From contig NZ_CP114778.1 in assembly GCF_027359395.1 (NCBI RefSeq), positions 1,178,001 through 1,242,000 on the forward strand: a stretch of 64,000 nt of DNA, given 5' to 3'. Each line of letters starts with the position of its first letter. Positions within the stretch are counted from its first letter, which is position 1. The notes below the pieces were generated by a model. That model searched no databases, was not told the origin of the DNA, and saw nothing but the letters and a program-made list of their open reading frames with translations. Positions 167 to 30,246 of the stretch are shown here, in pieces. The position numbers and the translations under genes are program-made. Source of the DNA: Prochlorococcus marinus str. MIT 1013. GTDB taxonomy: Bacteria; Cyanobacteriota; Cyanobacteriia; PCC-6307; Cyanobiaceae.

Positions 167-1192
167 TTACCCAGCAATAAATACCATCGCAGAAATAAGA
201 ATAGCCGAAGCCAAAATCCCTATAGAAGCTATTGACACAATCTTTCCAGTGTTTAAGGAGACTGAAACCGATAACAATTCTGTTCTTGAGTCTCGTTTCT
301 GTTGTGAATCAATTTGAGTTCGAGAATTAACAGTTTTGCTGGCTTGTGCTTTCTTGTCTGCTGCGGCTTTTTTATCTGCTGCAGCCTTCCTCTCCGCTTG
401 AGCTTTCTTCTCTGCTAAGGCTTTTTTATCTGCTAAGGCTTTTTTATCTGCTAAGGCTTTCTTCTCTTCTGCAGCCTTCCTCTCCGCTTGAGCTTTCTTC
501 TCTGCTAAGGCTTTTTTATCTGCTAAGGCTTTTTTATCTGCTAAGGCTTTCTTCTCTTCTGCAGCCTTCCTCTCCGCTTGAGCTTTCTTCTCTGCTAAGG
601 CTTTTTTATCTGCTAAGGCTTTCTTCTCTTCTGCAGCCTTCCTCTCCGCTTGAGCTTTCTTCTCTGCTAAGGCTTTTTTATCTGCTAAGGCTTTCTTCTC
701 TTCTGCAGCCTTCCTCTCCGCTTGAGCTTTCTTCTCTGCTAAGGCTTTTTTATCTGCTAAGGCTTTCTTCTCTGCTGCAGCCTTCCTCTCCGCTTGAGCT
801 TTCTTCTCTGCTAAGGCTTTTTTATCTGCTAAGGCTTTCTTCTCTGCTGCAGCCTTCCTCTCCGCTTGAGCTTTCTTCTCTGCTAAGGCTTTTTTATCTG
901 CTAAGGCTTTCTTCTCTGCTGCAGTCTTCCTCTCCGCTTGAGCTTTCTTCTCTGCTAAGGCTTTTTTATCTGCTAAGGCTTTCTTCTCTTCTGCAGCCTT
1001 CCTCTCCGCTTGAGCTTTCTTCTCTGCTAAGGCTTTTTTATCTGCTAAGGCTTTCTTCTCTGCTGCAGTCTTCCTCTCCGCTTGAGCTTTCTTCTCTGCT
1101 AAGGCTTTTTTATCTGCTAAGGCTTTCTTCTCTTCTGCAGCCTTCCTCTCCGCTTGAGCTTTCTTCTCTGCTTGAGCTGTTTTCGCTTGCAC
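167..1192 (-). CDS. Lys/Ala/Glu-rich hexad-repeat protein with C-terminal membrane anchor
   Basis: The 341-residue product consists for roughly residues 1-280 of hexads of the type KKALAD, KKALAE, KKAQAE, RKAAEE, grouped in 24-residue units. It is predicted to be one long, strongly basic helix. A polar linker follows, and the last ~24 residues (after SLNTGK) are hydrophobic and end at the stop codon, so the protein looks tail-anchored. The composition recalls the central helix of TolA, but there the membrane segment is N-terminal. The start is GTG at 1192; an in-frame TGA lies nine codons upstream and there is no ATG between. Two units carry an extra KKALAD hexad, a sign of repeat slippage. 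No enzymatic domain is visible and the function is unknown. A structural spacer or a nucleic-acid or envelope binding role are both possible. Confidence 0.7.
   Translation of the reverse strand: MQAKTAQAEKKAQAERKAAEEKKALADKKALAEKKAQAERKTAAEKKALADKKALAEKKAQAERKAAEEKKALADKKALAEKKAQAERKTAAEKKALADKKALAEKKAQAERKAAAEKKALADKKALAEKKAQAERKAAAEKKALADKKALAEKKAQAERKAAEEKKALADKKALAEKKAQAERKAAEEKKALADKKALAEKKAQAERKAAEEKKALADKKALADKKALAEKKAQAERKAAEEKKALADKKALADKKALAEKKAQAERKAAADKKAAADKKAQASKTVNSRTQIDSQQKRDSRTELLSVSVSLNTGKIVSIASIGILASAILISAMVFIAG
370..1185 (-). repeat. 72-bp tandem repeat array inside the Lys/Ala-rich gene
   Basis: About eleven copies of a 72-nt unit (24 codons) are nearly identical at nucleotide level, including silent positions. 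The main variation is GCA/GAA (Ala/Glu) at one codon and two units lengthened to 90 nt by an extra hexad. The nucleotide identity points to recent expansion or concerted evolution rather than selection on the protein alone. Confidence 0.85.
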
Positions 1193-1542: not shown

Positions 1543-3348
1543 TTGGAATCTAGCGATAAAAATCAAGGGAGAAAAAGATTCACTGAAATCAAAACATTCC
1601 CCATTCCTTTTACTTTAGAAGAAGGTAAAGACCTTATTTCAATTTCTAATAATCAACCTAATAAAACTTCTAAAGAAACACTAATTAATCAAGCACTAAA
1701 ATTTCATCTGAAAGGTAATCTTTCAGAGGCAATAAGATATTATAAATACTGTATTAGTCATGGTTTTAATGATCACAAGATTTTTTCTAATTATGGAGGA
1801 ATTCTAAAAGATCTTGGTAAACTAAAAGAAGCAGAGCTATATACCCGCAAAGCAATTCAACTTAAACCTAACTATGCGATAGCATATTCTAATCTCGGAA
1901 TCATATTGGCAGATCTTTGTAAACTAAAAGAAGCAGAACTATATACCCGCAAAGCAATTCAACTTAAGCCTGACTTCGCAGAAGCGCATTCCAATCTGGG
2001 AAATATATTAAAAGATCTTGGTAAACTAAAAGAAGCAGAAATCTCCACTAGAAAAGCAATTAAATTCCAACCTAACTATGCCTATGCTCTCTCAAATCTT
2101 GGAATGATATTAAAAGATCTTGGCAAACTAAAAGAAGCAGAAGTTTACGCTCGTAAAGCCATTGAAATTGATCCTCATATCGCAATGGCATATTCCAATT
2201 TCGGAATCATATTGAGAAGTCTTGGCAAACTAAAAGAAGGAGAAGTTTATGCTCGTAAAGCCATTGAAATTGATCCTCGTATCGCAATGGTACATTCAAA
2301 TCTCGGAATCATATTAAAAGATGTTGGTAAAACTAAAGAAGCAGAATTATCAACCCGCAAAGCAATTAAACTTAAACCTGATTACGCAGATGCTTATTTC
2401 AATCTTTCATACTTAGAACTTCTAAAAGGAAAATATAAATCTGGCCTAGAAAATTATGAATTTAGATTCAAAAAGAAAGAGACTCCATCTCTGCACGGAA
2501 ATCCAATTATCAAAAGACTCGATAATCAAGATTTACAAAAAGAAGAAAAGATCTTAGTCATTAGTGAGCAAGGTTTAGGCGATACTCTTCAATATATGCG
2601 CTACATACCATATCTAAGAAATCAAGGTTTTGATATTTCTTTTTGTGCTCAGGAGAAACTACATTCATTAATCCAGGCATCAGATATTGATCCAAATCCA
2701 TTAACCCCAGATCAATCCACTTTGGTTTCAGAAGGTCAATGGATTCCACTCTTATCTTTACCTCGGTCTCTCAAGGTAACTCCCAAAAATCCAATAATTT
2801 CTAAACCATATATCTTTTCAACAGATGAATTAAATAAGAAGTGGAAACAATTACTCTCCAAAGAAAAAAAACCGATTATTGGTATTAATTGGCAAGGTAA
2901 TCCAAAAATGGAAACCACTTATCAAGGACGATCAATTCCTTTAGAAGAATTCTCAAGGCTCTTTAACAGTAATGAGATCACTATGCTATCTCTCCAAAAA
3001 GGATTTGGTTCAGAGCAATTAGAAACTTGCTCATTCAAAAATAAGTTTGTTAGTTGCCAAAAAGAAATTGATTCAACTTGGGATTTTCTGGAAAATGCTG
3101 CCATTATTGAGAACTGTGATTTAATTATTACTTGTGATACGTCAATTGCTCATTTAGCTGGAGGTATGGGCAAAAAAGTTTGGTTACTATTAAAAGACAT
3201 TCCCTTTTGGACTTGGGGACTTAAAGAAGAGAGTACATTTTGGTATCCATCTATGAGATTATTCCGACAAAAAGAACGACATAATTGGTATGAAGTGATG
3301 GAAAGAGTATCAAATGAAATACAAAAAGAAATAGAAGATAAAATATAA
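1543..3348 (+). CDS. TPR protein fused to GT9-type glycosyltransferase domain, copy A
   Basis: The 601-residue product has the family tag (ESSDKNQ... then TFPIPF near residues 18-23), an asparagine-rich linker, a degenerate first TPR, and about seven canonical 34-residue TPRs to about residue 290. From about residue 325 it has a glycosyltransferase domain of the kind commonly joined to TPRs in bacteria. The marks are EQGLGDTLQY (donor-site loop), GINWQGNP, and CDTSIAHLAGGMGKKVW followed by a WYP...LFRQ tail. The likely activity is sugar transfer from a nucleotide sugar to a protein or glycan; donor and acceptor are unknown. The start is TTG, aligned with ATG in sister genes by the conserved tag and promoter spacing. 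The last 1.02 kb is almost identical to the gene at 9431. A methyltransferase follows after 56 bp. Confidence 0.85.
   Translation: MESSDKNQGRKRFTEIKTFPIPFTLEEGKDLISISNNQPNKTSKETLINQALKFHLKGNLSEAIRYYKYCISHGFNDHKIFSNYGGILKDLGKLKEAELYTRKAIQLKPNYAIAYSNLGIILADLCKLKEAELYTRKAIQLKPDFAEAHSNLGNILKDLGKLKEAEISTRKAIKFQPNYAYALSNLGMILKDLGKLKEAEVYARKAIEIDPHIAMAYSNFGIILRSLGKLKEGEVYARKAIEIDPRIAMVHSNLGIILKDVGKTKEAELSTRKAIKLKPDYADAYFNLSYLELLKGKYKSGLENYEFRFKKKETPSLHGNPIIKRLDNQDLQKEEKILVISEQGLGDTLQYMRYIPYLRNQGFDISFCAQEKLHSLIQASDIDPNPLTPDQSTLVSEGQWIPLLSLPRSLKVTPKNPIISKPYIFSTDELNKKWKQLLSKEKKPIIGINWQGNPKMETTYQGRSIPLEEFSRLFNSNEITMLSLQKGFGSEQLETCSFKNKFVSCQKEIDSTWDFLENAAIIENCDLIITCDTSIAHLAGGMGKKVWLLLKDIPFWTWGLKEESTFWYPSMRLFRQKERHNWYEVMERVSNEIQKEIEDKI
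2311..3331 (+). repeat. 1.02-kb direct repeat, copy A (glycosyltransferase module)
   Basis: The stretch matches 10100-11120 with only two substitutions found by eye (positions 2910 and 3090). It begins inside the last TPR and ends ten codons before the stop, after which the two genes have different tails. The offset is a constant 7789 bp. Confidence 0.9.
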
Positions 3349-3404
3349 CTGCAAAAACTCAAAAGAAGATTAATATTATAAATGTTTCTTGAAGAAACTT
3401 CCTG

Positions 3405-3986
3405 ATGAATGCTCTTAAACTAAATCTAGGATGTGGAGAGAAGAAACTTCAAAATTATATAAATGTAGATAAGTTTGGGACCCCAGACATAAAGCTTGAT
3501 TTAGAATCATTTCCTTGGCCTTGGGAAACAAATTCAGTCTCAGAGATTCAATTAATACATGTACTTGAACATCTAGGTAAAGATGTAGAAATATACTTTG
3601 GAATATTCAAAGAGATGTATAGAATATGTCGTAATGGGGCAGAGATTCTAATAAAAGTTCCTCACTTTAGGCATCAATTCTTCTATGATGATCCAACTCA
3701 TGTGAGAGCTATCACTCCACTAGGTTTACAATTATTTTCAAAAAAATTAAACAAGCAGTGGATAGAGAAAAAAGCATCAAATAGTCCTCTTGGAATATAT
3801 TTAGATATCGATTTTGAACTAAAGAAAACAGGTATCAAGCCAAGTCAAGACTGGTTCAGGCTACATCCAGAAAAAAATACTGATATTAAATTGCTTATTC
3901 AAGAATCTAACATATATAATAATTTAATTGAAGAGTATGAGCTAGTGCTTGAAGTAATTAAAAGTAAAGATTTAGAAACAGTTTAA
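3405..3986 (+). CDS. Class I SAM-dependent methyltransferase
   Basis: The 193-residue protein starts with LNLGCGEKKL, the SAM-binding motif I of class I methyltransferases. It then has NVDKFG (acidic residue at the end of strand 2), the DLESFPWPW segment, and LIHVLEHL, the arrangement of the Methyltransf_11/23 type often found in glycan clusters. It has no TPRs of its own. It sits between a TPR-glycosyltransferase and a DUF6165 gene with only a 5-bp gap to the latter, so the three may be co-transcribed and act on the same glycan or protein. The substrate cannot be read from sequence. Confidence 0.8.
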   Translation: MNALKLNLGCGEKKLQNYINVDKFGTPDIKLDLESFPWPWETNSVSEIQLIHVLEHLGKDVEIYFGIFKEMYRICRNGAEILIKVPHFRHQFFYDDPTHVRAITPLGLQLFSKKLNKQWIEKKASNSPLGIYLDIDFELKKTGIKPSQDWFRLHPEKNTDIKLLIQESNIYNNLIEEYELVLEVIKSKDLETV

Positions 3987-3991
3987 ATGAT

Positions 3992-4393
3992 ATGACTTCA
4001 AAAGCTAAATACTTATCTAATATTCTCGTTCCAGTCTCTATAGGAGAACTAATAGATAAAATCACAATTCTAGAAATAAAAAAAGCACATATGACTGGCA
4101 TAAAGCTCAAAAATGTAGAGAAAGAGCTGGAACTACTAAAATGTATTCTTGATGATAAGAAACTAGAAATCAATATTGATTTAGTTCATCGTCTTAAAAC
4201 AATAAATAATAGTCTTTGGGAAATAGAAGATAAAATCAGGATCAAAGAAAGTAAAAAAGAATTCGACAACGATTTTATTCAACTAGCACGATCAGTATAT
4301 CAAGAAAATGATATACGGGCTGCTATAAAACAAGAAATAAACTATAAGTATAATTCAAACCTGGTAGAGGAAAAATTATACAATGAATACTGA
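3992..4393 (+). CDS. DUF6165-like protein
   Basis: The 133-residue protein opens with ILVPVSIGELIDKITILEIK, which I recognise as the signature of the DUF6165 family. This family is small and alpha-helical and often found beside TPR or sugar-modifying genes. The rest is charged helix with no catalytic motif that I can see. The gene begins 5 bp after the methyltransferase stop and the gap has no terminator, so it likely belongs to the same transcript. Biochemical role unknown. Confidence 0.65.
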   Translation: MTSKAKYLSNILVPVSIGELIDKITILEIKKAHMTGIKLKNVEKELELLKCILDDKKLEINIDLVHRLKTINNSLWEIEDKIRIKESKKEFDNDFIQLARSVYQENDIRAAIKQEINYKYNSNLVEEKLYNEY

Positions 4394-4680
4394 AAATAAA
4401 TCAAAACAATTAGAAAGTAATATGGAAGTAAATTTTTATAAGTTAAATGGATCTTCATTCATGTAGGTTCCTAAGAAATACTAAGCTACTTACTTATAAA
4501 CTTAAGTTTTAATACTAAAATAATTATTGCAAATTTTATGCTAAATCTTATACGGGACGTATCTAAACTCATAGCATTAAAAGATGTGATTAACTTAGAG
4601 ACATCCTGAAAAATAATTCGAAACTAGCAGTAATTTATCTCGCTCTAGATTATAAAGAAGAATAATTTTAAAGTTAGTAG

Positions 4681-4820
4681 TAGAATTAAACCATTAGAAG
4701 ATAGTCAAGAGGAAAATGAAGAAATCTGATAAAAAAGATAAAGACAAAAAAATTATACCTGAAGCAGCTACATTTTAAGTGCCATTTAGATCAGAAGAGA
4801 TCCATCAGAAAATCAATATA
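4681..4820 (+). pseudogene. Relic of a TPR-cassette promoter and N-terminal tag
   Basis: The -10-like TAGAAT at 4681-4686 and an ATG at 4716 reproduce the cassette start with normal spacing. The frame reads MKKSDKKDKDKK...PEAATF, then TAA (4776-4778), then VPFRSEE. The stop codon therefore falls exactly inside the conserved TFxVPF motif. No TPR follows in frame. The surrounding 4394-4955 gap otherwise shows nothing. This is a dead leader ahead of the tag-less TPR gene at 4956. Confidence 0.75.
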
Positions 4821-4955
4821 AATACAAACATTTAAAGATTGAGCGCCAGATTATGAGAACTTCTCAAAACCTAAGATTTACAACTAAGGCGAATATAAAA
4901 GCTTTATATAGTAGACTTCATGGTTATTATATATAAATGAATCTGAGGACTTAGC

Positions 4956-6812
4956 TTGACAATAGAAATAGCTAACTCACTCTTTAAACAAAATAAATAT
5001 CAAGAAACAATTTATACTTGTAATCAAATATTAACTACTAATAATGACTCGGTAGAAGCTTTAAAATTAATCGCAAAATCTTTTTTAGCAATCAGAAAGA
5101 TAGATGATGCTCGTTTATATTTTAATAAGGTGCTAAAAATTAAATCTGATGATTATGAAGTCATTAAAGATCTCGGAAATACATATCAAGCGGTTGGAGA
5201 TGTGAATACTGCTAAGGATTATTATCAAAAGGCACTAGAGATTAATAGTTCTTATGCTCCAGCTTTAACGAATATAGGGAACATTGAAATCAATATACAT
5301 AACAAAAAAGAAGGATTATCTTTATTAATCAAAGCGACTAAATCTGACCCAAAATTCGCTCCTGCATGGGTGAGCCTTGCCAATGGGTATGGTCGATTTG
5401 GGAAAATAAAAGAAGCTGAGATTTGTTGCCGCAAAGCAATAAAACTTGACCCCAATCCCTTCAACTCTCATTTCCTTCTCGGAACAATCCTTCTTGGACA
5501 AAAAAAACTTCAAGAAGCTGAACTACCTCTTCGCAAAACTATTGAACTCAAGCCTGATTTCTTTCAGGCTCATCTAAACCTTGGAGCAGTTTTAAAAGAA
5601 CTTGGACAACTACAAGAAGCAGAAGTATCTATACGAAAAGCAATAGAACTTAACCCCAATCTCTTCAACTCTCATTTCCTTCTCGGAACAATCCTTCTTG
5701 GACAAAAAAAACTTCAAGAAGCTGAACTACCTCTTCGCAAAACTATTGAACTCAAGCCTGATTTCTTTCAGGCTCATCTAAACCTTGGAGCAGTTTTAAA
5801 AGAACTTGGACAACTACAAGAAGCAGAAGTATCTATACGAAAAGCAATAGAACTTAACCCCAATCTCTTCAACTCTCATTTCCTTCTCGGAACAATCCTT
5901 CTTGGACAAAAAAAACTTCAAGAAGCTGAACTACCTCTTCGCAAAACTATTGAACTCAAGCCTGATTTCTTTCAGGCTCATTCAGCTTTAGGAGGTTTAT
6001 TAGGCGAGCTTGGCAATATACAAGAAGCAGAGACATCACTGCGTCAAGCAATTCTAATTAAACCTGATTTCGCAATGGCGCATTCCAATCTAGGACTCAC
6101 ATTGAAAGATCTTGGTCAATTACAAGAAGCAGAAATCTCCACTCGCAAAGCAATTGAACTAAAACCTGATTTCGCAGAGGCGCATTCCAATCTAGGACTC
6201 ATATTGAAAGATCTTGGTCAATTACAAGAAGCAGAAATCTCCACTCGCAAAGCAATTGAACTAAAACCTGATTTCGCAGAGGCGCATTCCAATCTAGGAC
6301 TCACATTGAAAGATCTTGGTCAATTACAAGAAGCAGAAGTCTCTACTCGCAAAGCAATTGAAATTAAACCTAATTATTCAGAGGCGCATTTCAATCTGGG
6401 AAATATTTTGAGAGATCTTGGTGAGTTACGAGACGCAGAATCATCAATTTGCAGAGCAATTGAGCTGAATCCTAATTACGCAGAGGCGCATTCCAATCTG
6501 GGAAATATCTTTAAAGATCTTGGTCAATTCCAAGAAGCAGAAATCTACACTCGCAAAGCAATTGAAATTAAACCTGATTTCGCCGAGGCGCATTACAATC
6601 TTGGAATCATATTGAGAGAGCTTAAAAAACGAGATAGTGCGATTTCCAGCCTCGATAAAGCTAGTAAACTTGGAATGGACTACAAACTATGTCTATCGGG
6701 AATTGGAGGTATGCTGTTAGAAAAAGGAAAGCATGCTGAAGGAATATCCAAGCTCAAAGCTGGACAAGGAAGAATTGAATTCAATCTCAAACAAGGCTTA
6801 TCTTTTAATTAA
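4956..6812 (+). CDS. TPR-only protein (about 16 repeats), no family tag
   Basis: The 618-residue product is TPR from end to end. It starts at TTG 4956, the first usable codon after an in-frame stop, and so lacks the tag and linker. Residues ~165-345 are made of an exactly repeated 68-residue double TPR. The C-terminus (GMLLEKGKHAEGISKLKAGQ... then a short GLSFN tail) matches the C-terminus of the TPR gene at 14138. Both genes are followed at once by the same kind of oxygenase (here after 2 bp), which suggests an obligate scaffold-enzyme pair. The protein probably presents a partner or substrate to the oxygenase. Confidence 0.85.
   Translation: MTIEIANSLFKQNKYQETIYTCNQILTTNNDSVEALKLIAKSFLAIRKIDDARLYFNKVLKIKSDDYEVIKDLGNTYQAVGDVNTAKDYYQKALEINSSYAPALTNIGNIEINIHNKKEGLSLLIKATKSDPKFAPAWVSLANGYGRFGKIKEAEICCRKAIKLDPNPFNSHFLLGTILLGQKKLQEAELPLRKTIELKPDFFQAHLNLGAVLKELGQLQEAEVSIRKAIELNPNLFNSHFLLGTILLGQKKLQEAELPLRKTIELKPDFFQAHLNLGAVLKELGQLQEAEVSIRKAIELNPNLFNSHFLLGTILLGQKKLQEAELPLRKTIELKPDFFQAHSALGGLLGELGNIQEAETSLRQAILIKPDFAMAHSNLGLTLKDLGQLQEAEISTRKAIELKPDFAEAHSNLGLILKDLGQLQEAEISTRKAIELKPDFAEAHSNLGLTLKDLGQLQEAEVSTRKAIEIKPNYSEAHFNLGNILRDLGELRDAESSICRAIELNPNYAEAHSNLGNIFKDLGQFQEAEIYTRKAIEIKPDFAEAHYNLGIILRELKKRDSAISSLDKASKLGMDYKLCLSGIGGMLLEKGKHAEGISKLKAGQGRIEFNLKQGLSFN
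5457..5981 (+). repeat. 204-bp tandem repeat, 2.6 copies
   Basis: Units begin at 5457, 5661 and 5865 with a period of 204 bp (68 codons, two TPRs). The second and third are identical by eye, including silent sites; the first differs at single bases (CCCTTC versus CTCTTC). The third is cut off at 5981 by a different TPR. This is a recent in-frame duplication. Confidence 0.9.
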
Positions 6813-6814
6813 TA

Positions 6815-7411
6815 ATGAAAAGATCCGACTTAGGTAAAACAAATCTTACTCCCAACTTTATTGGTTCATGGACAATAGAACCGTCCTTATGTAATGAGAT
6901 AATCTCATATTTTGAAAACAACAAACAAAAACAAACCCAAGGTTCAACCTCAGAGGGTATAAATCTAGAAGTTAAAAATAGACAAGATATCAGTCTTACT
7001 CCAGAAGAATTAAAACTCCCAGAAAATAAAGTATTTAAATTATACTTTGAAAGTCTATTTGAATGCTACAAAGACTACAATATCCAATGGCCATACTTAT
7101 CTTTAATTGCTTATCGTTTAGATATAGGTAAGTTTAATATTGGTAAATATATGCCTGGTCAACATTTTCAGGAAACACATTGTGAAAGAGCTGGATTAAG
7201 TACTCTCCATAGAATCTTTGCCTTTATGACCTATTTAAATGATGTAGAAGAAGGTGGTTCAACATATTTCAATCATTACGATCTAGATATAAAGCCAAAG
7301 CAAGGTTTAACTTTGATTTGGCCAGCTGAATGGACTCACTCTCACAAAGGGAATGTATTAAAATCAGGTCTAAAATATATAATTACTGGCTGGCTGACAT
7401 TTCCAAATTGA
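6815..7411 (+). CDS. 2-oxoglutarate/Fe(II)-dependent oxygenase (prolyl-4-hydroxylase-like), TPR-partner 1
   Basis: The 198-residue protein has the double-stranded beta-helix pattern of the family common in marine cyanobacteria and their phages. It shows PGQHFQETHCE with likely iron ligands H122 and E124 (an HxE instead of the usual HxD), MTYLNDVEEGGSTYF, WPAEWTHSHKG with distal ligand H175, and KYIITGW, whose Lys187 probably binds 2-oxoglutarate. Expected reaction: hydroxylation of a protein or small-molecule substrate with O2 and 2-oxoglutarate. It starts 2 bp after the TPR gene stop, so the two are translationally linked. Its closest relative in the window is the gene at 15122, in the same arrangement. 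Confidence 0.85.
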   Translation: MKRSDLGKTNLTPNFIGSWTIEPSLCNEIISYFENNKQKQTQGSTSEGINLEVKNRQDISLTPEELKLPENKVFKLYFESLFECYKDYNIQWPYLSLIAYRLDIGKFNIGKYMPGQHFQETHCERAGLSTLHRIFAFMTYLNDVEEGGSTYFNHYDLDIKPKQGLTLIWPAEWTHSHKGNVLKSGLKYIITGWLTFPN

Positions 7412-7687
7412 CTAATATTTTAAAATTCAGAGTGATTGATTAGTGCAATATTGCTTCTATATTAGAAACCTTTTATTCCGTTGATTTCATTAGTTTTTCT
7501 CTTAAGATTCCTTACCCTAGATTTTTTGAATATCTGCAACCATTTAATTAAAGAAGATCTCTTCCTTACATGGGCAATCTCTTTCTAGATAATCTTAGAG
7601 AGTTTGTTATTAGTTAACAGAGGACTTTGCTTGATGATGAGTGAAATGCTCTGACAGATCAAGGTCTGAAGTTCGAACTAATTGAAG

Positions 7688-7720
7688 TAGTTCTCTAATC
7701 AGTTATTAACTAGAGAACTA
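7688..7720. other. Perfect 10-bp inverted repeat in the gap between convergent genes
   Basis: TAGTTCTCTA (7688-7697) and TAGAGAACTA (7711-7720) are exact reverse complements around a 13-nt spacer, followed by TTTTAGG. It lies between the oxygenase and the convergent TPR gene (gap 7412-7758, otherwise empty). It could be a weak terminator or a protein-binding site. Confidence 0.45.
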
Positions 7721-7758
7721 TTTTAGGATGACATCCCTTCAATTCCAAAAGTCTTTTC

Positions 7759-8640
7759 TTATGATTTTCTAAAATTTCTCAATTTGTTTCCCAAATTGGA
7801 ATGAGCCTCTTCAATATCATGTTTTAGTTCAATTGCTTTTCGCGTGGAGATTTCTGCTTCTTGTAATTGACCAAGATCTTTCAAGATGCTTCCTAAATTA
7901 TAATGCGCCTCAGCGAAATCAGGTTTAATTTCAATTGCTTTGCGAGTGTAGATTTCTGCTTCTTGGAATTGACCAAGATCTTTCAAGATATTTCCCAGAT
8001 TGGAATGAGCAATTGCGTAATCAGGTTTGATTTTAATTGCTTTTCGGGTTGATACTTTTGCTTCTTCTAACTTGCCAAGATTACTCAATATTTCGCCTAA
8101 ATTCGAATAAGCAATTGCGAAATTAGGATTCAGTTCAATTGCTTTTCGAGTGGAGGTTTCTGCTTCTTCTAACTTGCCAAGATCTCTTAATATGTTTCCC
8201 AAATTAGAATGAGCCTCTGCAATATCATGTTTCAGTTCAATTGCTTTTCGCGTGGAGATTTCTGCTTCTTGTAATTTGCCAAGATCTCTTAATATGTTTC
8301 CCAAATTGGAATGTGCTTCTGCATAATTAGGTTTCATTTCAATTGACTTGCGAGTTGATACTTCTGCTTCTTTTAGTTTATTTTGATCTTTTAAAATTAT
8401 TCCATAATTGGAAAAAACCTTGTGATGATTAAAACCTTGATTAATAAAATATTGATAAGATTTTTCTGCTTCTGAGATATTTCCTTGTGAATGAAACTCA
8501 AATGCTTGATTCATTATTTGCTCTTTAGAAGGTTTGGTCTTCTTATTACTTTTCTTTTTAGATTTATGCTGCTCTCCAAAGCCTTTTATCTTCTTATTGC
8601 ATTTCTTTTTAGATTTATGCTGCTCTCCAAAACCTTTCAT
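7759..8640 (-). CDS. TPR-only protein with duplicated basic leader, inverted and 3'-truncated
   Basis: The 293-residue protein is the only TPR cassette on the minus strand. In place of the family tag it has two tandem copies of a 17-residue basic leader (KGFGEQHKSKKK.NKK). The usual KPSKEQ linker and the family TPRs then follow, about seven of them. The last TPR decays to NLGNKLRNFRKS and stops, where sister proteins read NLGNILRDLGKL, so a C-terminal domain has probably been lost. No shared promoter block is visible ahead of it. Its genes neighbour on the 3' side is convergent. Confidence 0.75.
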   Translation of the reverse strand: MKGFGEQHKSKKKCNKKIKGFGEQHKSKKKSNKKTKPSKEQIMNQAFEFHSQGNISEAEKSYQYFINQGFNHHKVFSNYGIILKDQNKLKEAEVSTRKSIEMKPNYAEAHSNLGNILRDLGKLQEAEISTRKAIELKHDIAEAHSNLGNILRDLGKLEEAETSTRKAIELNPNFAIAYSNLGEILSNLGKLEEAKVSTRKAIKIKPDYAIAHSNLGNILKDLGQFQEAEIYTRKAIEIKPDFAEAHYNLGSILKDLGQLQEAEISTRKAIELKHDIEEAHSNLGNKLRNFRKS

Positions 8641-9065
8641 CTTTAAAACTTCAGTTACTTTCTTTAATGCGATAATACTATCTCTCCATGAGAATCAATA
8701 ACATCAGTCTATTTTTTGGTTGGAAATATTAAATGAGAATAATTCACTTTCCAGAAAACAATAATTCACAACGACCAACATGCGTCCTAAATCGTCAGTC
8801 ATCTTGTGCCTGAAATTTATGGATACTGATCTATTCATCTTCCTAAAAGCATCTTCTTAGTATGTGTTGGTGAAATACTTTTACCAAATCACATGTTGGT
8901 TTTGCAAGTAAATATGAAACTGATTAAATACTTTTCACCAAGAATTATTTTTCAAATTAAAAACATAAGTTTAGTCTAGAGATATTAGGTCCACATTAGG
9001 AAACCAACCTCCAAACAACTCATCTCCAGAGATCCCTTGCATAGACTGAATTCTCTCCCAACAAT

Positions 9066-9190
9066 ACACGAGTGAATTAATATAAATCCTCCTGAATCTC
9101 TTTAATCAAACATTTCAATAGATTGGAGTGATTATGAACTCATCTTAATCCATCTGAACCTGATGAAAACGGAGAGAGCGAGAGGGATTT
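9066..9190 (-). repeat. tRNA-Ser 3'-end remnant and flank, copy 1 (oldest-looking)
   Basis: The block ATGAAAACGGAGAG...GAGAGGGATT resembles the 3' end of the intact tRNA-Ser and is preceded by a flank also present at 21965-22176 (TATAAATCC..C.GAATC, GATTATGAACTC, CTGAA.C.GATGAAAA). It is the most degenerate copy. The rest of the 8641-9430 gap shows no coding potential. Confidence 0.55.
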
Positions 9191-9399
9191 AACAGTTTAA
9201 AGGTTGATTAGCGATATTTCCCCTTTAAAAAAGATTCTAGGCAGTAAAAGGCCAATCCCTTATCTGAAAGTAAAAACTTCAAACTTGTTGCCGCAAAAGA
9301 AATTGGTGCTATCTGTTTATATCCAAATTAAAGATATTGCTTTAAAAATTTAATTATTGAGTCAAAGGGATTCCTTCAAATAAAAATTATATTGAGTAG

Positions 9400-9405
9400 T
9401 AGAAT
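9400..9405 (+). promoter_or_regulatory. TPR-cassette promoter, -10-like box, copy 2
   Basis: TAGAAT in the shared GAGTAGTAGAATTG block. The spacing is 28 nt if translation starts at the second codon (TTG 9434) and 25 nt to the ATG at 9431. Confidence 0.5.
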
Positions 9406-9430
9406 TGCTAAATTCATAAGTTCCTAGAAG

Positions 9431-11143
9431 ATGTTGGGATCTAGCGATAAAAATCAAGAAAAAAGAAGGATCATAGAAATAAAAACATTCTCAGTTCCAT
9501 TTTCTTTAAAAGAGACTCAAAAAGATATTGCTCTTTCTACGAATGCTTCTTCAAAATATTCTAAAGAACAAATAATTAATCAGGCAATTCAATATCATCT
9601 ACAAGGTAATATTCAAGAAGCTTCAAAGTATTATAAATATTGTCTTTCTCAAGGATATAAAGACCCAAAAGTATTCTGTAATTATGGAATCATATTAAAC
9701 AATCTTGGTAAATTACAAGAAGCAGAACTATATACCCGCAAAGCAATTCAACTTAAGCCTGACTTCGCAGAAGCGCATTCCAATCTGGGAAATATATTAA
9801 AAGATCTTGGTAAACTAAAAGAAGCAGAAATCTCCACTCGCAAAGCAATTCAACTGAAACCTAATTATGCAGAGGCGCATTTCAATCTGGGAAACATTTT
9901 GAGAGATTTTGGAAAATTACGAGATGCAGCATCATCAATTCACAAAGCAATTCAACTTAAGCCTGACTTCGCAGAAGCACATTCTAATTTGGGAAATATA
10001 TTAAAAGATCTTGGCAAATTACAAGAGTCAGAATCATCAATTCGCAAAGCAATTGAGCTGAATCCTAATTACGCAGAGGCATATTCCAATCTAGGACGAA
10101 TATTAAAAGATGTTGGTAAAACTAAAGAAGCAGAATTATCAACCCGCAAAGCAATTAAACTTAAACCTGATTACGCAGATGCTTATTTCAATCTTTCATA
10201 CTTAGAACTTCTAAAAGGAAAATATAAATCTGGCCTAGAAAATTATGAATTTAGATTCAAAAAGAAAGAGACTCCATCTCTGCACGGAAATCCAATTATC
10301 AAAAGACTCGATAATCAAGATTTACAAAAAGAAGAAAAGATCTTAGTCATTAGTGAGCAAGGTTTAGGCGATACTCTTCAATATATGCGCTACATACCAT
10401 ATCTAAGAAATCAAGGTTTTGATATTTCTTTTTGTGCTCAGGAGAAACTACATTCATTAATCCAGGCATCAGATATTGATCCAAATCCATTAACCCCAGA
10501 TCAATCCACTTTGGTTTCAGAAGGTCAATGGATTCCACTCTTATCTTTACCTCGGTCTCTCAAGGTAACTCCCAAAAATCCAATAATTTCTAAACCATAT
10601 ATCTTTTCAACAGATGAATTAAATAAGAAGTGGAAACAATTACTCTCCAAAGAAAAAAAACCGATTATTGGTATTAATTGGCAAGGTAATCCAAAAATAG
10701 AAACCACTTATCAAGGACGATCAATTCCTTTAGAAGAATTCTCAAGGCTCTTTAACAGTAATGAGATCACTATGCTATCTCTCCAAAAAGGATTTGGTTC
10801 AGAGCAATTAGAAACTTGCTCATTCAAAAATAAGTTTGTTAGTTGCCAAAAAGAAATTGATTCAACTTGGGATTTTCTAGAAAATGCTGCCATTATTGAG
10901 AACTGTGATTTAATTATTACTTGTGATACGTCAATTGCTCATTTAGCTGGAGGTATGGGCAAAAAAGTTTGGTTACTATTAAAAGACATTCCCTTTTGGA
11001 CTTGGGGACTTAAAGAAGAGAGTACATTTTGGTATCCATCTATGAGATTATTCCGACAAAAAGAACGACATAATTGGTATGAAGTGATGGAAAGAGTATC
11101 AAATGAAATACAAAAAGAAAGCAGAACGAATCTACTAAAATAA
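9431..11143 (+). CDS. TPR protein fused to GT9-type glycosyltransferase domain, copy B
   Basis: The 570-residue product has the family tag (GSSDKNQ..., TFSVPF), six to seven TPRs, and the same glycosyltransferase domain as the gene at 1543 (EQGLGDTLQY, CDTSIAHLAGG, LFRQ). That domain is identical except for Met/Ile at one residue. The TPR halves of the two genes differ in number and order of units, so the C-terminal module has been copied onto a different scaffold. The last nine residues differ from copy A (ESRTNLLK versus EIEDKI). ATG 9431 or TTG 9434 are both possible starts; the promoter spacing favours 9434. Confidence 0.85.
   Translation: MLGSSDKNQEKRRIIEIKTFSVPFSLKETQKDIALSTNASSKYSKEQIINQAIQYHLQGNIQEASKYYKYCLSQGYKDPKVFCNYGIILNNLGKLQEAELYTRKAIQLKPDFAEAHSNLGNILKDLGKLKEAEISTRKAIQLKPNYAEAHFNLGNILRDFGKLRDAASSIHKAIQLKPDFAEAHSNLGNILKDLGKLQESESSIRKAIELNPNYAEAYSNLGRILKDVGKTKEAELSTRKAIKLKPDYADAYFNLSYLELLKGKYKSGLENYEFRFKKKETPSLHGNPIIKRLDNQDLQKEEKILVISEQGLGDTLQYMRYIPYLRNQGFDISFCAQEKLHSLIQASDIDPNPLTPDQSTLVSEGQWIPLLSLPRSLKVTPKNPIISKPYIFSTDELNKKWKQLLSKEKKPIIGINWQGNPKIETTYQGRSIPLEEFSRLFNSNEITMLSLQKGFGSEQLETCSFKNKFVSCQKEIDSTWDFLENAAIIENCDLIITCDTSIAHLAGGMGKKVWLLLKDIPFWTWGLKEESTFWYPSMRLFRQKERHNWYEVMERVSNEIQKESRTNLLK
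10100..11120 (+). repeat. 1.02-kb direct repeat, copy B (glycosyltransferase module)
   Basis: Partner of 2311-3331, same orientation. The substitutions found by eye are at 10699 and 10879. Confidence 0.9.
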
Positions 11144-14137: not shown

Positions 14138-15115
14138 ATGGCATCTAGCGATAAAAAGAAGGTAAAAAAGAAAGTTCCTGAAATTAAAACATTTTCAGTT
14201 CCATTTGCTTTAGACGAAATTAACGAAAGTAGTCCTATTAAAACTCAGGCACCTTTGAAATCTACGAAAGAAGAAATAATGAATCAAGCCTTTAAGTTTC
14301 ATTCACAAGGAAACATTTCAGACGCAATAAAATATTATCAACAGTTCATAAATCAAGGCTTAAATGATCACAGAGTTTTTTCTAATTACGGGACAATTTT
14401 AAAAGATCTTGGCAAGTTAAAAGAAGCGGAAATCTCAATTCGCAATGCAATTGAACTACGCCCTGACTACGCGATAGCCCACTCGAATCTGGGCCTAATA
14501 TTGAAAGATCTTGGCAAATTACAAGAAGGAGAATTAAGCATTCGCAAAGCGATTGAACTTAATCCTAATTTTGCTGATGCTCATTCGAATCTAGGGAACA
14601 CATTAAAACAGCTTGGCAAATTAAAAGAAGCAGAAATCTCCTATCGTAAAGCAATTGAGCTGCAACCTAATTTCGCAGAGGCACATTCCAATCTAGGAAA
14701 TATTTTAAAAGAGCTTGACAAATTTAAAGAGGCGGAAATCTCATATCGTAAAGCAATTGAACTGAAACCTAATTACGCAGATGCACATCACAACCTGGGA
14801 AATATATCGATGAATTTAGGTAACTTAAAAGAGGCAGAATGTTCATATCGCAAAGCAATTGAGCACAGGCCTGATCTAATAGAAGCTCATACCAGTCTAG
14901 GATTTAACCTCATAAATCAACAGAGATTAGATGAGGCATCTTCTAGTTTTCAAAGCGCAATTAATATCCAAAAAGATTATAAAAAGGCCATAAGTGGATT
15001 TGGAAAAGTCTTAATGAAACAAGGAAAATATTTAGAAGGTATGAAAAAATTAAGAGAAGGAAATGGTTCTATTATATTTGACTATAGTAATTTAAAAATG
15101 ACTATAGTCTCATAA
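14138..15115 (+). CDS. Tagged TPR protein paired with the downstream oxygenase
   Basis: The 325-residue product has the tag (ASSDKKK..., TFSVPF), linker, degenerate first TPR and about seven canonical TPRs. The C-terminal segment (GFGKVLMKQGKYLEGMKKLREG) is shared with the protein at 4956 and not with the other cassettes. The oxygenase gene starts 6 bp after the stop, with an AAAG upstream. Pairing with the same oxygenase subtype at both loci suggests that this C-terminal segment docks or positions the enzyme. Confidence 0.85.
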   Translation: MASSDKKKVKKKVPEIKTFSVPFALDEINESSPIKTQAPLKSTKEEIMNQAFKFHSQGNISDAIKYYQQFINQGLNDHRVFSNYGTILKDLGKLKEAEISIRNAIELRPDYAIAHSNLGLILKDLGKLQEGELSIRKAIELNPNFADAHSNLGNTLKQLGKLKEAEISYRKAIELQPNFAEAHSNLGNILKELDKFKEAEISYRKAIELKPNYADAHHNLGNISMNLGNLKEAECSYRKAIEHRPDLIEAHTSLGFNLINQQRLDEASSSFQSAINIQKDYKKAISGFGKVLMKQGKYLEGMKKLREGNGSIIFDYSNLKMTIVS

Positions 15116-15121
15116 TTAAAG

Positions 15122-15721
15122 ATGAAAAGAGTAATCACTAATAAAGCATCCCTGAATCCAACTTTTATTAATTCATGGATCATAGAACCACTATCATTAT
15201 GTGAAGATCTGATCAACTATTTTGAACTCAATTCAGCCAAGCATCAGAAAGGAAACTCAGCCTCTGGCGTCAACCCCAATATCAAAGATAGTACAGATGT
15301 AGCAATTCATCCCAAAGATATTCTTATCCCAGGTAATGAGATATTCAAACAATACTTTGAGGAATTATTTGAATGCCATAAGGATTACATTTCACAGTGG
15401 TCTTTTTTAAAAGAAAATTCTCAAAAGTATGAAATTGGTACTTTCAACCTTCAACGATATCAACCAGGGCAACATTTCAAAAAGATCCATACCGAACGTT
15501 TTTCTATAGAAAATCTTCACCGTATTTTTGTATTTATGACTTACTTAAATGATGTGCAAGAGGGCGGTTCAACATATTTCAGTAATTATGATATTGAGAT
15601 ACAACCCAAAAAAGGCTTAACATTGATTTGGCCCGCTGAATGGACCCATGCGCACAAAGGAAACGTTTTAAAAGCAGGCAATAAATACATCATTACTGGT
15701 TGGATTAATATCACGAACTAA
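15122..15721 (+). CDS. 2-oxoglutarate/Fe(II)-dependent oxygenase, TPR-partner 2
   Basis: This 199-residue paralogue of the protein at 6815 has the same motif order: PGQHFKKIHTE (H123, E125), MTYLNDVQEGGSTYF, WPAEWTHAHKG (H176) and KYIITGW (Lys188). All expected iron and co-substrate residues are kept, so it should be active. It is linked to the TPR gene at 14138 by a 6-bp gap. Sequence drift between the two oxygenases is much larger than in the duplicated glycosyltransferase, so this pairing is old and under selection. Confidence 0.85.
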   Translation: MKRVITNKASLNPTFINSWIIEPLSLCEDLINYFELNSAKHQKGNSASGVNPNIKDSTDVAIHPKDILIPGNEIFKQYFEELFECHKDYISQWSFLKENSQKYEIGTFNLQRYQPGQHFKKIHTERFSIENLHRIFVFMTYLNDVQEGGSTYFSNYDIEIQPKKGLTLIWPAEWTHAHKGNVLKAGNKYIITGWINITN

Positions 15722-25135: not shown

Positions 25136-25756
25136 ATGGAATCTAGTGATAAAGATCAAGGAAAAAAGAATATACCTCAAGTCCAAACATTTACTGTTCC
25201 ATTTCCTTTAGGGGAAAATAAAGACAATATCACTATTACTACTAATGCGCCTTCTAAACCTTCTAAACCTTCTAAACCTTCTAAATCTTCTAAATCTTCT
25301 AAATCTTCTAAATCTTCTAAGGAACAAATAATCAATCAAGCAATTAAGTTTCAGCTAGAAGGAAATATTCCAGAAGCAACAAAATGTTATCAGTATTGTA
25401 TAAATAAAGGTTTTAATGATCACCGGGTTTTTTTTAATTATGGAACAATCTTAAAAGATCATGGTAAATTACAAGAAGCAGAATTATCTACTCGCAAAGC
25501 AATTCAAATTAAACCTGATTTCGCAGAGTCGCATTACAATCTAGGAAACATATTGAGAGATCTTGGCAACTTACAAGAAGCAGAATCGTCACACCGCAAA
25601 GCAATTGAAATCAAACCTGATTTCGCTGATGCTCATTACAATCTAGGAGACATATTGAGAAATCTTGGTAAAAAAGTTGAATCAAATAAATGTTATCAAA
25701 AAGCAATAGAATTGAAACCTTGGCATGTCGCAACCGCTTGGAAAATAAATAGTTAA
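25136..25756 (+). CDS. Tagged TPR-only protein with expanded PSK/SSK linker
   Basis: The 206-residue product has the tag (ESSDKDQ..., TFTVPF), an unusually long linker of four PSK and four SSK tripeptides, a degenerate first TPR and about three canonical TPRs. It ends shortly after (ELKPWHVATAWKINS) with no C-terminal domain. It is convergent with the SET-domain gene, with 3 bp between the stop codons. It may be a truncated cassette or a bare scaffold used by neighbouring enzymes. Confidence 0.75.
   Translation: MESSDKDQGKKNIPQVQTFTVPFPLGENKDNITITTNAPSKPSKPSKPSKSSKSSKSSKSSKEQIINQAIKFQLEGNIPEATKCYQYCINKGFNDHRVFFNYGTILKDHGKLQEAELSTRKAIQIKPDFAESHYNLGNILRDLGNLQEAESSHRKAIEIKPDFADAHYNLGDILRNLGKKVESNKCYQKAIELKPWHVATAWKINS
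25250..25321 (+). repeat. 9-bp tandem repeat in the linker, 8 copies
   Basis: CCTTCTAAA occurs four times, then TCTTCTAAA/G four times. Sister cassettes have one copy (18519, 23226) or two (27921), so copy number varies within the family. Each unit adds three residues and keeps the frame. Confidence 0.9.
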
Positions 25757-27920: not shown

Positions 27921-29627
27921 ATGGTATCTAGTAATAAAGAGCAAGGAAAGAACAAAGTCAATGAAGCAAAAACATTCAATGTTCCATTTGCTTTAGAAGA
28001 AATCAAAGAAAATCTTACTATTAATACTAATGCTCCTTCTAAACCTTCTAAACCTTCTAAAGAAAAAATAATCAATCAAGCATTACGGTTTCATTCACGA
28101 GGAAAGATTCAAGAAGCAGCAAAATATTATCAATATTTTATTAATCAAGGTATTAAAGATCACAGGATTTTTTCTAATTATGGAGTCATCTTAAAAAATC
28201 TTGGCAAATTACAAGAAGCAGAATTATCTCAACGCAAAGCAATTGAAATAAAACCTGATTACGCAGATGCGCATTTCAATCTGGGAAATGTATTGAGAGA
28301 TCTTGGCAAATTAGAAGAAGCAGATTTATCTCAACGCAAAGCAATTCAACTGAATCCTAACTTCGCAGAAGCGTATTCCAATCTGGGAGGCATATTGATC
28401 TATCTAGGTAAATTACAAGACGCAGAATTATCTCTACGCAAAGCAATTGAAATAAAACCTGATTACGCAGAGGCATATTACAATCTTGGAAACATATTAA
28501 TAGATCTTGGAAAACTAGAAGAAGCAGAATTATCTCTACGTAAAGCAATTGAAGTTAAACCTGATTACGCAATGGCACATGCCAATTTAGGCACCATAAT
28601 GAAAGATCTTGGCAACTTACAAGAAGCAGAAATATTCACTCTCAAGGCAATTGAAATTAACTCTGATCTCGCCCAGGCGCATTACAATCTAGGAATCATA
28701 TTAGAGGATTTGGGCAAATCAAAAGAATCATTAAGACATTGGATTAAGGCAGCTGAATTAAAGCCTAAAGATGAGAAATTAATTATAGGATTAGCTCATA
28801 ATTTATGTTATGGGAACAAATATGAATTAGCATTAAAATATCTAAGTAAAAATCAATCTAATTCTTCTCAAAGTGTATATCTAGGTTGTTTACTATCTCT
28901 TGATAGGGAAAAAGAATTCAATGAGAAGTACAAAGTACTCTACGAGAAAAAAGTTTGCAATGCCGATATCGGAGGCATAGTAGCGCATGCCAATATTATT
29001 TACGGAAAACAATACGAATCGCATTTCTGTAATGAATCAATTAAGTATGTATTAATAGATAAAATAAATGAAGAATTATTCTCCGAAAGTAACTTAAATC
29101 AACTAATCGCTTATAATAAAATGAGTAAGAAGGAAGGGAAATCTCAGGTCCTTCTCAGTAATGGTATTCAAACTTCGGGGAATTTATTTTCATTAGACTA
29201 CTCATTTATTAAAGCAATGAAAAAGGCTTTAGAAATGAAGATTGAACAATACAAACAAAAATTCAAAGATAGTGGGCAAGGTTTCATAAATAATTGGCCC
29301 GAAAGTTATGAACTTCGATCATGGATGATTAGCATGAAAACTGGTGGATTTCTGAAGAGCCACAATCATGAATATGGATGGATTACTGGTAGTTTTTACC
29401 TTCAAATTCCCAAATATAATGATAATAAGAATGATGATTCAGGTAACATAGCTTTTAGCTATCAAGGTCCTAGATATCCTAATAAAGACAAGAATTTTAA
29501 TTTAACTGTTAAGAAACTAGAAACTAGAGATATTTGTATATTTCCTTCTTCTTTATTTCATCATACAATTCCGTTTGAAAGTTCAGAAGAACGTATATGT
29601 TTTGTTTTTGATTTAGTACAGAAATAA
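27921..29627 (+). CDS. TPR protein fused to 2-oxoglutarate/Fe(II) oxygenase domain (type 2)
   Basis: The 568-residue product has the tag (VSSNKEQ..., TFNVPF), a two-unit PSK linker, about seven TPRs to about residue 275, a helical spacer and a C-terminal oxygenase. GGFLKSHNHEYG (His481/His483), SFYLQIP, GNIAFSYQGP, ICIFPSSLFHHTIPF (His547/548) and EERICFVFD (Arg558) fit the putative 2-oxoglutarate/Fe(II) oxygenase family 2OG-FeII_Oxy_5. It is the cassette nearest the intact tRNA-Ser and so probably the latest arrival. Its 3' end recurs as a fragment at 20276. Confidence 0.8.
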   Translation: MVSSNKEQGKNKVNEAKTFNVPFALEEIKENLTINTNAPSKPSKPSKEKIINQALRFHSRGKIQEAAKYYQYFINQGIKDHRIFSNYGVILKNLGKLQEAELSQRKAIEIKPDYADAHFNLGNVLRDLGKLEEADLSQRKAIQLNPNFAEAYSNLGGILIYLGKLQDAELSLRKAIEIKPDYAEAYYNLGNILIDLGKLEEAELSLRKAIEVKPDYAMAHANLGTIMKDLGNLQEAEIFTLKAIEINSDLAQAHYNLGIILEDLGKSKESLRHWIKAAELKPKDEKLIIGLAHNLCYGNKYELALKYLSKNQSNSSQSVYLGCLLSLDREKEFNEKYKVLYEKKVCNADIGGIVAHANIIYGKQYESHFCNESIKYVLIDKINEELFSESNLNQLIAYNKMSKKEGKSQVLLSNGIQTSGNLFSLDYSFIKAMKKALEMKIEQYKQKFKDSGQGFINNWPESYELRSWMISMKTGGFLKSHNHEYGWITGSFYLQIPKYNDNKNDDSGNIAFSYQGPRYPNKDKNFNLTVKKLETRDICIFPSSLFHHTIPFESSEERICFVFDLVQK

Positions 29628-30110
29628 ATTTTATTCAACTTTCTTATAATTACTCCATTTAATTAAATACCACTAACGAATTATTTCCCAGAAAACAAAA
29701 TAAAACCAACTTACAAAACTGGGCAAGATTTGAAGAGAAGCATAAAGATCCTTTCAGAGCAGGGAATCTTATTTCTCTTGGATTAAAAGCATCTACTTGG
29801 TAGGTGCTTTTTTAATGCCTTAAGTAATAAACAGAGCACACATATCCACCCAAGAAACTTCAATCCCCCTCTGACGCAGCAAAAATCCCCCTCAACGAGC
29901 GTGAAACCGATTGGCATATCAGAGATCTCTCTCTCCTACTGAGTTCTTAAAATCCCCCTCAAAATCCCCCTCGCACTTTTCGTTCTGTATTGCACACTAA
30001 GGGACCGCTTGAAACTCTTTATCTCTCTAAACCTTTACTAATACTGTATTTTTAATCTGTTTAGAACTGCTTAAAACCCTCTTACACCAAATAAGAACGG
30101 AGAGGGAGGG
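29586..30110. repeat. 520-bp direct repeat, right copy: oxygenase gene tail to tRNA-Ser
   Basis: This is the partner of 20276-20796. It contains the terminator at 29785 and runs into the 3' end of the intact tRNA-Ser. Confidence 0.85.
29785..29813 (+). terminator. Rho-independent terminator, island type B copy 3
   Basis: AAAAGCATCT pairs with AGGTGCTTTTTT around ACTTGGT, one mismatch. It lies about 160 bp after the TPR-oxygenase stop. Confidence 0.7.
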
Positions 30111-30186
30111 ATTCGAACCCTCGACAGAAGTTACCTCCTGTAACTCCTTAGCAGGGAGCCGCTTTCAACCACTCAGCCACCTCTCC
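30098..30186 (-). tRNA. tRNA-Ser(GCU), intact; integration target
   Basis: On the minus strand the acceptor GGAGAGG pairs with CCTCTCC, discriminator G, with a long variable arm (TTACAGGAGGTAAC) typical of tRNA-Ser. The anticodon loop CTGCTAA gives GCU. The T-loop GGTTCGAATCC is complete. CCA is not encoded. Its 3' end faces the island. Confidence 0.95.
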
Positions 30187-30246
30187 ATAATAAATACCTT
30201 ATCAAGTCAACGCTCCAAAAAATTAGATTGTGCTTCTCTACAAATT

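Follow-up and report, generated by a model that had tools for sequence, protein, structure and literature searches.

Recent exchange of a GT9-like glycosyltransferase module between two TPR genes of Prochlorococcus marinus, probably by ectopic gene conversion

Introduction

How did two Prochlorococcus genes that differ in their N-terminal parts and in their last codons come to end in almost the same glycosyltransferase module? The genes lie at 1543-3348 (+; copy 1, an ORF of 601 aa with a TTG start that encodes a header, a TPR array and a GT9-like module) and at 9431-11143 (+; copy 2, an ORF of 570 aa) of the window, by which we mean the whole stretch of 64,000 nucleotides analysed here (G000:C1:1178001-1242000); coordinates of other loci, such as 1028769, are genome positions on C1. 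An earlier note had proposed that a recent conversion or recombination through TPR homology moved the catalytic end, and we have followed this proposal through the home genome and its sister species.

TPR domains are described as one of the most strongly enriched groups of domain families in low-light Prochlorococcus, where they have been linked to photosystem assembly (PMC11357015). Our literature search found this enrichment and, in the portions of the sources that it covered, no account of module exchange in a family of header-TPR-enzyme genes.

Results and Discussion

The shared block and its edges

Positions 2311-3331 (+), which hold the last TPRs and the GT9-like module of copy 1, agree with 10100-11120 (+) of copy 2 at 1019 of 1021 bp at a fixed offset of 7789, exactly the length and the two differences that had been claimed. 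The first difference, at 2910, is ATG in copy 1 and ATA in copy 2 (Met to Ile), and the second, at 3090, is CTG and CTA respectively, and is silent. Both fall at third codon positions, and in each case copy 1 has G where copy 2 has A. A DNA identity of 99.8% is far beyond the background, as the other GT9-like modules of the home genome show 29-75% protein identity; the nearest modules in other species, each species being represented by one genome, reach 77% in protein.

Beyond the block the copies differ on both sides, in agreement with the earlier note, edges being taken as the rightmost or leftmost identical base. The right flank (3332-3404, 73 bp) matches at 31.5%, which is the chance level, random pairs from the same window having 26.4% identity (s.d. 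2.9%, maximum 36.4%). The left flank is a diverged TPR stretch (2050-2310, +) in which 173 of 261 positions match 9839-10099 (66.3%), so that the homology at this junction, which the note had suggested comparing with chance, clearly exceeds it. Measured against the range of the random pairs, the left junction thus lies in real TPR homology and the right junction does not. As had been proposed, the left edge falls within a TPR, at codon 257 in copy 1 and codon 224 in copy 2.

The earlier note overlooked a second identical patch within the two TPR arrays, 122 bp at 1928-2049 (+) and 9717-9838 (+), which has zero differences and is in the same register as the 1021-bp block. It ranks as the fourth longest shared run among the 780 TPR-array pairs in the genome, for which the median is 20 bp. 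Since it is flanked by two diverged stretches, it points either to two tracts or to one tract that was broken up later.

Near-identical repeats misassemble easily, and an assembly artefact or a collapsed repeat could produce such a block. This is very improbable, however, as the home genome is one contig of 2,046,712 bp (completeness 100, contamination 0.37), the copies are set apart by two bases, have open frames and unlike flanks, and similar events are seen in two other one-contig genomes.

Identity of the exchanged module

The exchanged C-module is a predicted GT9-like glycosyltransferase, its domain with a GT-B fold being placed at 2404-3345 (+) by Pfam, AlphaFold2 and Foldseek. The query module scores 17.2 bits against Glyco_transf_9 and does not reach the curated cut-off of 22 bits; of 56 aligned modules, 52 match the profile with an E of 0.1 or lower (best 5e-6). 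An AlphaFold2 model made from 56 relatives (pLDDT 82.9, pTM 0.83) has a predicted GT-B fold nearest to GT9 structures, the best solved structures found by Foldseek being the GT9 structure 3tov, TibC (4rap), WaaF (1psw) and also WaaC (E 8e-8 to 1e-3), with TM-scores of 0.36-0.48 and identities of 9-14%. A sequence search of the PDB with the module found no relative. Given the modest TM-scores, the low identity and the profile score under the cut-off, we use the label 'GT9-like' rather than GT9. The GT9 heptosyltransferases (WaaC/WaaF, TibC) share with the module the GT-B fold, the top PDB matches and the Pfam Glyco_transf_9 profile, but the module differs in being fused to TPR arrays, and most of its members are weak against that profile. 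Its relatives in the named genome collection are all from Prochlorococcus.

Direction of the exchange and the mosaic nature of copy 2

Downstream of copy 1 lie a methyltransferase-like gene (3405-3986, +; weak match to Pfam Methyltransf_11) and a DUF6165 gene (3992-4393, +; Pfam DUF6165, 1e-11), both apparently ancestral neighbours of the GT9 module. This order of module, methyltransferase and DUF6165 is kept at copy 1 and recurs in other species: the methyltransferase-like gene is found in seven of them and adjoins the GT9 module in G016, G002, G004 and G006, many GT9 loci in sister species include the DUF6165 gene, and G004 and G006 carry the arrangement 6-9 kb from alr, the gene that adjoins the island containing the copy 1/copy 2 pair. 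The DNA across the copy 1 stop codon also resembles the tails in G004 and G016; the tail of copy 2 (SRTNLLK) is unique, and a search for the origin of its DNA (11121-11143) gave no match, with the surrounding DNA matching only the leaders of other family genes. From the ancestral gene order and the copy 1 tail, copy 1 is likely to be the native copy and donor, and the 1021-bp exchange is likely to have run from copy 1 to copy 2. The GT9 tree, in which the two copies are not grouped with the syntenic modules of G004 or G006, neither adds to this reading nor contradicts it, so that the direction is drawn from gene order and tail.

Copy 2 is a mosaic gene. Its leader and first codons follow the type seen in the local island (47/60 to copy 1, 22/60 to the gene at 1028769), its header and first TPR (9452-9716, +) are 88-94% identical to C1:1028769-1031276, a gene 157 kb away with a GT41 C-module (51-57/60), and further on the match is 60/60 to copy 1. 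In protein, the copy 2 header is 79% identical to that of the 1028769 gene and 54% to that of copy 1. Duplication of the whole gene, with later divergence of its N-terminal half, would account for the like architecture and orientation of the two genes; it is hardly credible and was rejected on the edge pattern and the header affinities, in that the copy 2 header is closer to a distant gene than to copy 1, identity drops suddenly at both edges, and the 5' and 3' flanks are unrelated.

Mechanism

We consider it probable that a segment of copy 2 was recently replaced by the corresponding segment of copy 1 through ectopic homologous recombination, with gene conversion as the most likely form, which makes the earlier proposal the best reading, and similar blocks occur in the home genome and in two sister species. 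As in ectopic conversion, a near-identical tract sits within otherwise diverged paralogues (flanks of 66% and 31%). The left flank is homologous between the copies (TPR); the right flank today shows no homology. The tract would extend from the middle of the last TPRs of copy 1 to the last conserved GT9-like codon. Strand invasion would have begun in the TPR DNA, where junctions in register keep the frame because the unit is 102 bp, and the tract would have ended a few codons short of the stop, at the point where homology between GT9 paralogues gives out. Copy 2 would then already have held a diverged GT9-like module, whose tail survived.

A different course would be that copy 2 had another C-module, for example GT41, and that a TPR crossover combined with end-joining attached copy 1's GT9 module to it. 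A GT41 module is indeed present in the header relative at 1028769, and identical N-halves are joined to unrelated C-modules at 836589/839973 and 844073/866554, so that re-pairing of halves does occur. Such a graft is nonetheless unlikely, as N-half conversion of the ordinary kind can equally re-pair halves, and as the likeness among GT9 genes ends where the right edge falls, which is the last conserved GT9 codon of the home genome and the matching codon of G004. This exact coincidence of the edge with the end of homology favours conversion of a resident GT9 paralogue over a non-GT9 graft.

Horizontal transfer could also have brought in the finished chimera, built on a mobile element or in a different strain. 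The genes do lie in islands, one of them bordered by the tRNA-Ser gene at 30097-30187, and exchange of islands between strains via homologous recombination is documented in aquatic prokaryotes (PMC4033161). We regard such an arrival as quite improbable, though, as a donor copy with 99.8% identity is present 7.8 kb away in the same genome, and only two distant relatives turned up when 2.9 million viral contigs were scanned (35%; a 32-residue match).

Other exchanges in the home genome and in sister species

Copies 1 and 2 are not alone, as several swaps of this kind have taken place among the roughly 39 genes of their family. The same C-module stands behind different headers at 831214-833029 and 867221-869036 (1816 bp, 99.7%) and at 851488-853403 and 866333-864418 (1916 bp, 99.95%). 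The same N-half is joined to unrelated C-modules at 837519-838167 and 840633-841281 (649 bp, 99.8%), at 1020628-1021151 and 1022384-1022907 (98.7%), and at 845471-846236 and 867000-866235 (95.4%). The gene at 866554 took part in two exchanges, its N-half matching 844073 and its C-module 830826, and the block 886291-887849, paired with 1022424-1020866 (1559 bp, 98.1%), has both edges in the TPR arrays of neighbouring genes. Eight near-identical blocks of 480 bp or more shared between genes were hand-chosen from the list of such blocks for their link to TPR genes. In every one of them, one edge or both fall within TPR arrays in both copies, and the excess of TPR edges in the home genome is significant (p=0.0012, permutation by sliding blocks).

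The sister species G004 repeats the same exchange anatomy: 1072080-1073341 and 1389126-1387865 are 97.4% identical, the left edge lies in a TPR, the right edge is at the same codon as in the home genome by correspondence of the genes, and a methyltransferase adjoins one copy only. In G004 a 741-bp patch of 99.9% identity falls wholly within two GT9 modules, and in G005 the GT9 modules form a patchwork with 98-100% identity; both have the look of gene conversion between modules already in place. In the GT9 tree the youngest pairs, at the tips, are within genomes. Tracts in the sister species often end within the module, and enrichment of TPR edges is not significant there (G004, p=0.46; G005, p=0.89), so TPRs are one set of boundaries among others. 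Edge enrichment as a genus-wide law was rejected, being significant in the home genome only.

The header-TPR-enzyme family

The Prochlorococcus family, in which membership of some genes is based on simple patterns, has about 39 genes in the home genome, with a shared N-terminal header, an array of 34-aa TPRs and a variable C-module. The consensus header KTFxVPFxL...KEQIINQAFKFHSQGN...VFSNYG with the first TPR is present in 37 of the 41 genus genomes searched, with 39 matches in the home genome, 44 in G004 and 38 in G005. C-modules in the home genome include GT9-like, GT41 (Glyco_transf_41, E to 2e-80), sulfotransferase and 2OG-Fe(II) oxygenase types, and others without a profile, one of which is hydrolase-like by reading of its sequence. 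The TPR DNA of family genes is about 65-80% identical in a 102-bp register. Headers and C-modules are decoupled genome-wide: the nearest header relative has the same C-class for 3 of 34 genes (5.6 expected at random) and lies in the same island for 15 of 34 (7.5 expected, p=0.006). Most TPR genes found in the home genome are members of this one family, whose modular products are predicted to be mostly modifying enzymes and whose halves recombine.

Several known systems share parts of this design. FlmG, the flagellin O-glycosyltransferase of Caulobacter, is alike in architecture, with an N-terminal TPR array and a C-terminal GT-B domain in one protein, as is the predicted fold here; it is described as a single gene serving flagellins, whereas here there are about 39 genes with a common header and several enzyme classes (PMC7591256). 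In the meningococcal tpsA/tpsC island the 5' part is likewise conserved and the 3' module exchanged when related sequences recombine, but that system, which includes tpsC cassettes and immunity genes, makes a secreted growth inhibitor (PMC3848433); here the partners are two full-length genes and the TPR array is the junction. O-GlcNAc transferase and SPINDLY (GT41) join a TPR array to GT41, as do other members of this family, although the module exchanged here is GT9-like instead.

If, by analogy with FlmG, the TPR array picks the substrate that the C-module modifies, such exchanges would re-pair targets and enzymes, and the present one would hand one enzyme a second set of targets. We raise as a tentative possibility that the family is a combinatorial diversification system, in which TPR arrays act as in-frame recombination hubs that re-pair substrate-binding arrays with GT9-like, GT41, sulfotransferase and 2OG oxygenase modules. 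Prochlorococcus strains would then differ in the proteins or surface structures that they modify and in the manner of modification, and recombining halves would explain many target-enzyme combinations in a small, streamlined genome. The recent junctions offer material for asking whether the TPR array sets the target of the fused enzyme.

Further features of the window and its relatives

Two family genes, 7759-8640 (-) and 25136-25756 (+), have a TPR array with no C-module and are possibly array reservoirs or truncated genes. In each of the stretches 4956-7411 and 14138-15721, a TPR gene with a short C-end precedes a 2OG-Fe(II) oxygenase-like gene that stands separately (at 6815, by Pfam match; at 15122, by sequence likeness), as if array and module had been split. 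Within the TPR gene 4956-6812, 204-bp (two-TPR) repeats at 5433-5981 (2.7 copies, 99% identity) are a recent array expansion inside one gene. The headers of two family genes contain 9-bp CCTTCTAAA repeats, at 25250-25320 (7.9 copies) and 28035-28061 (3 copies), which form a coding length repeat of (Pro/Ser)-Ser-Lys. Outside the window, a broken GT9-like remnant with one in-frame stop (G000:C1:830044-830393) lies just before the family gene at 830826, which itself has a GT41-like C-module. The tRNA-Ser(gct) gene at 30097-30187 separates the TPR island from the conserved alr/prfA/ribosomal-protein region, a tRNA at an island border being a common situation. Beside copy 1, the ORF at 167-1192 (-) carries a coding array (342-1172) with a 72-bp unit in about 10 copies at 95%, and it encodes a repeat protein that is rich in Lys, Ala and Glu and has a hydrophobic segment at its C-terminal end.
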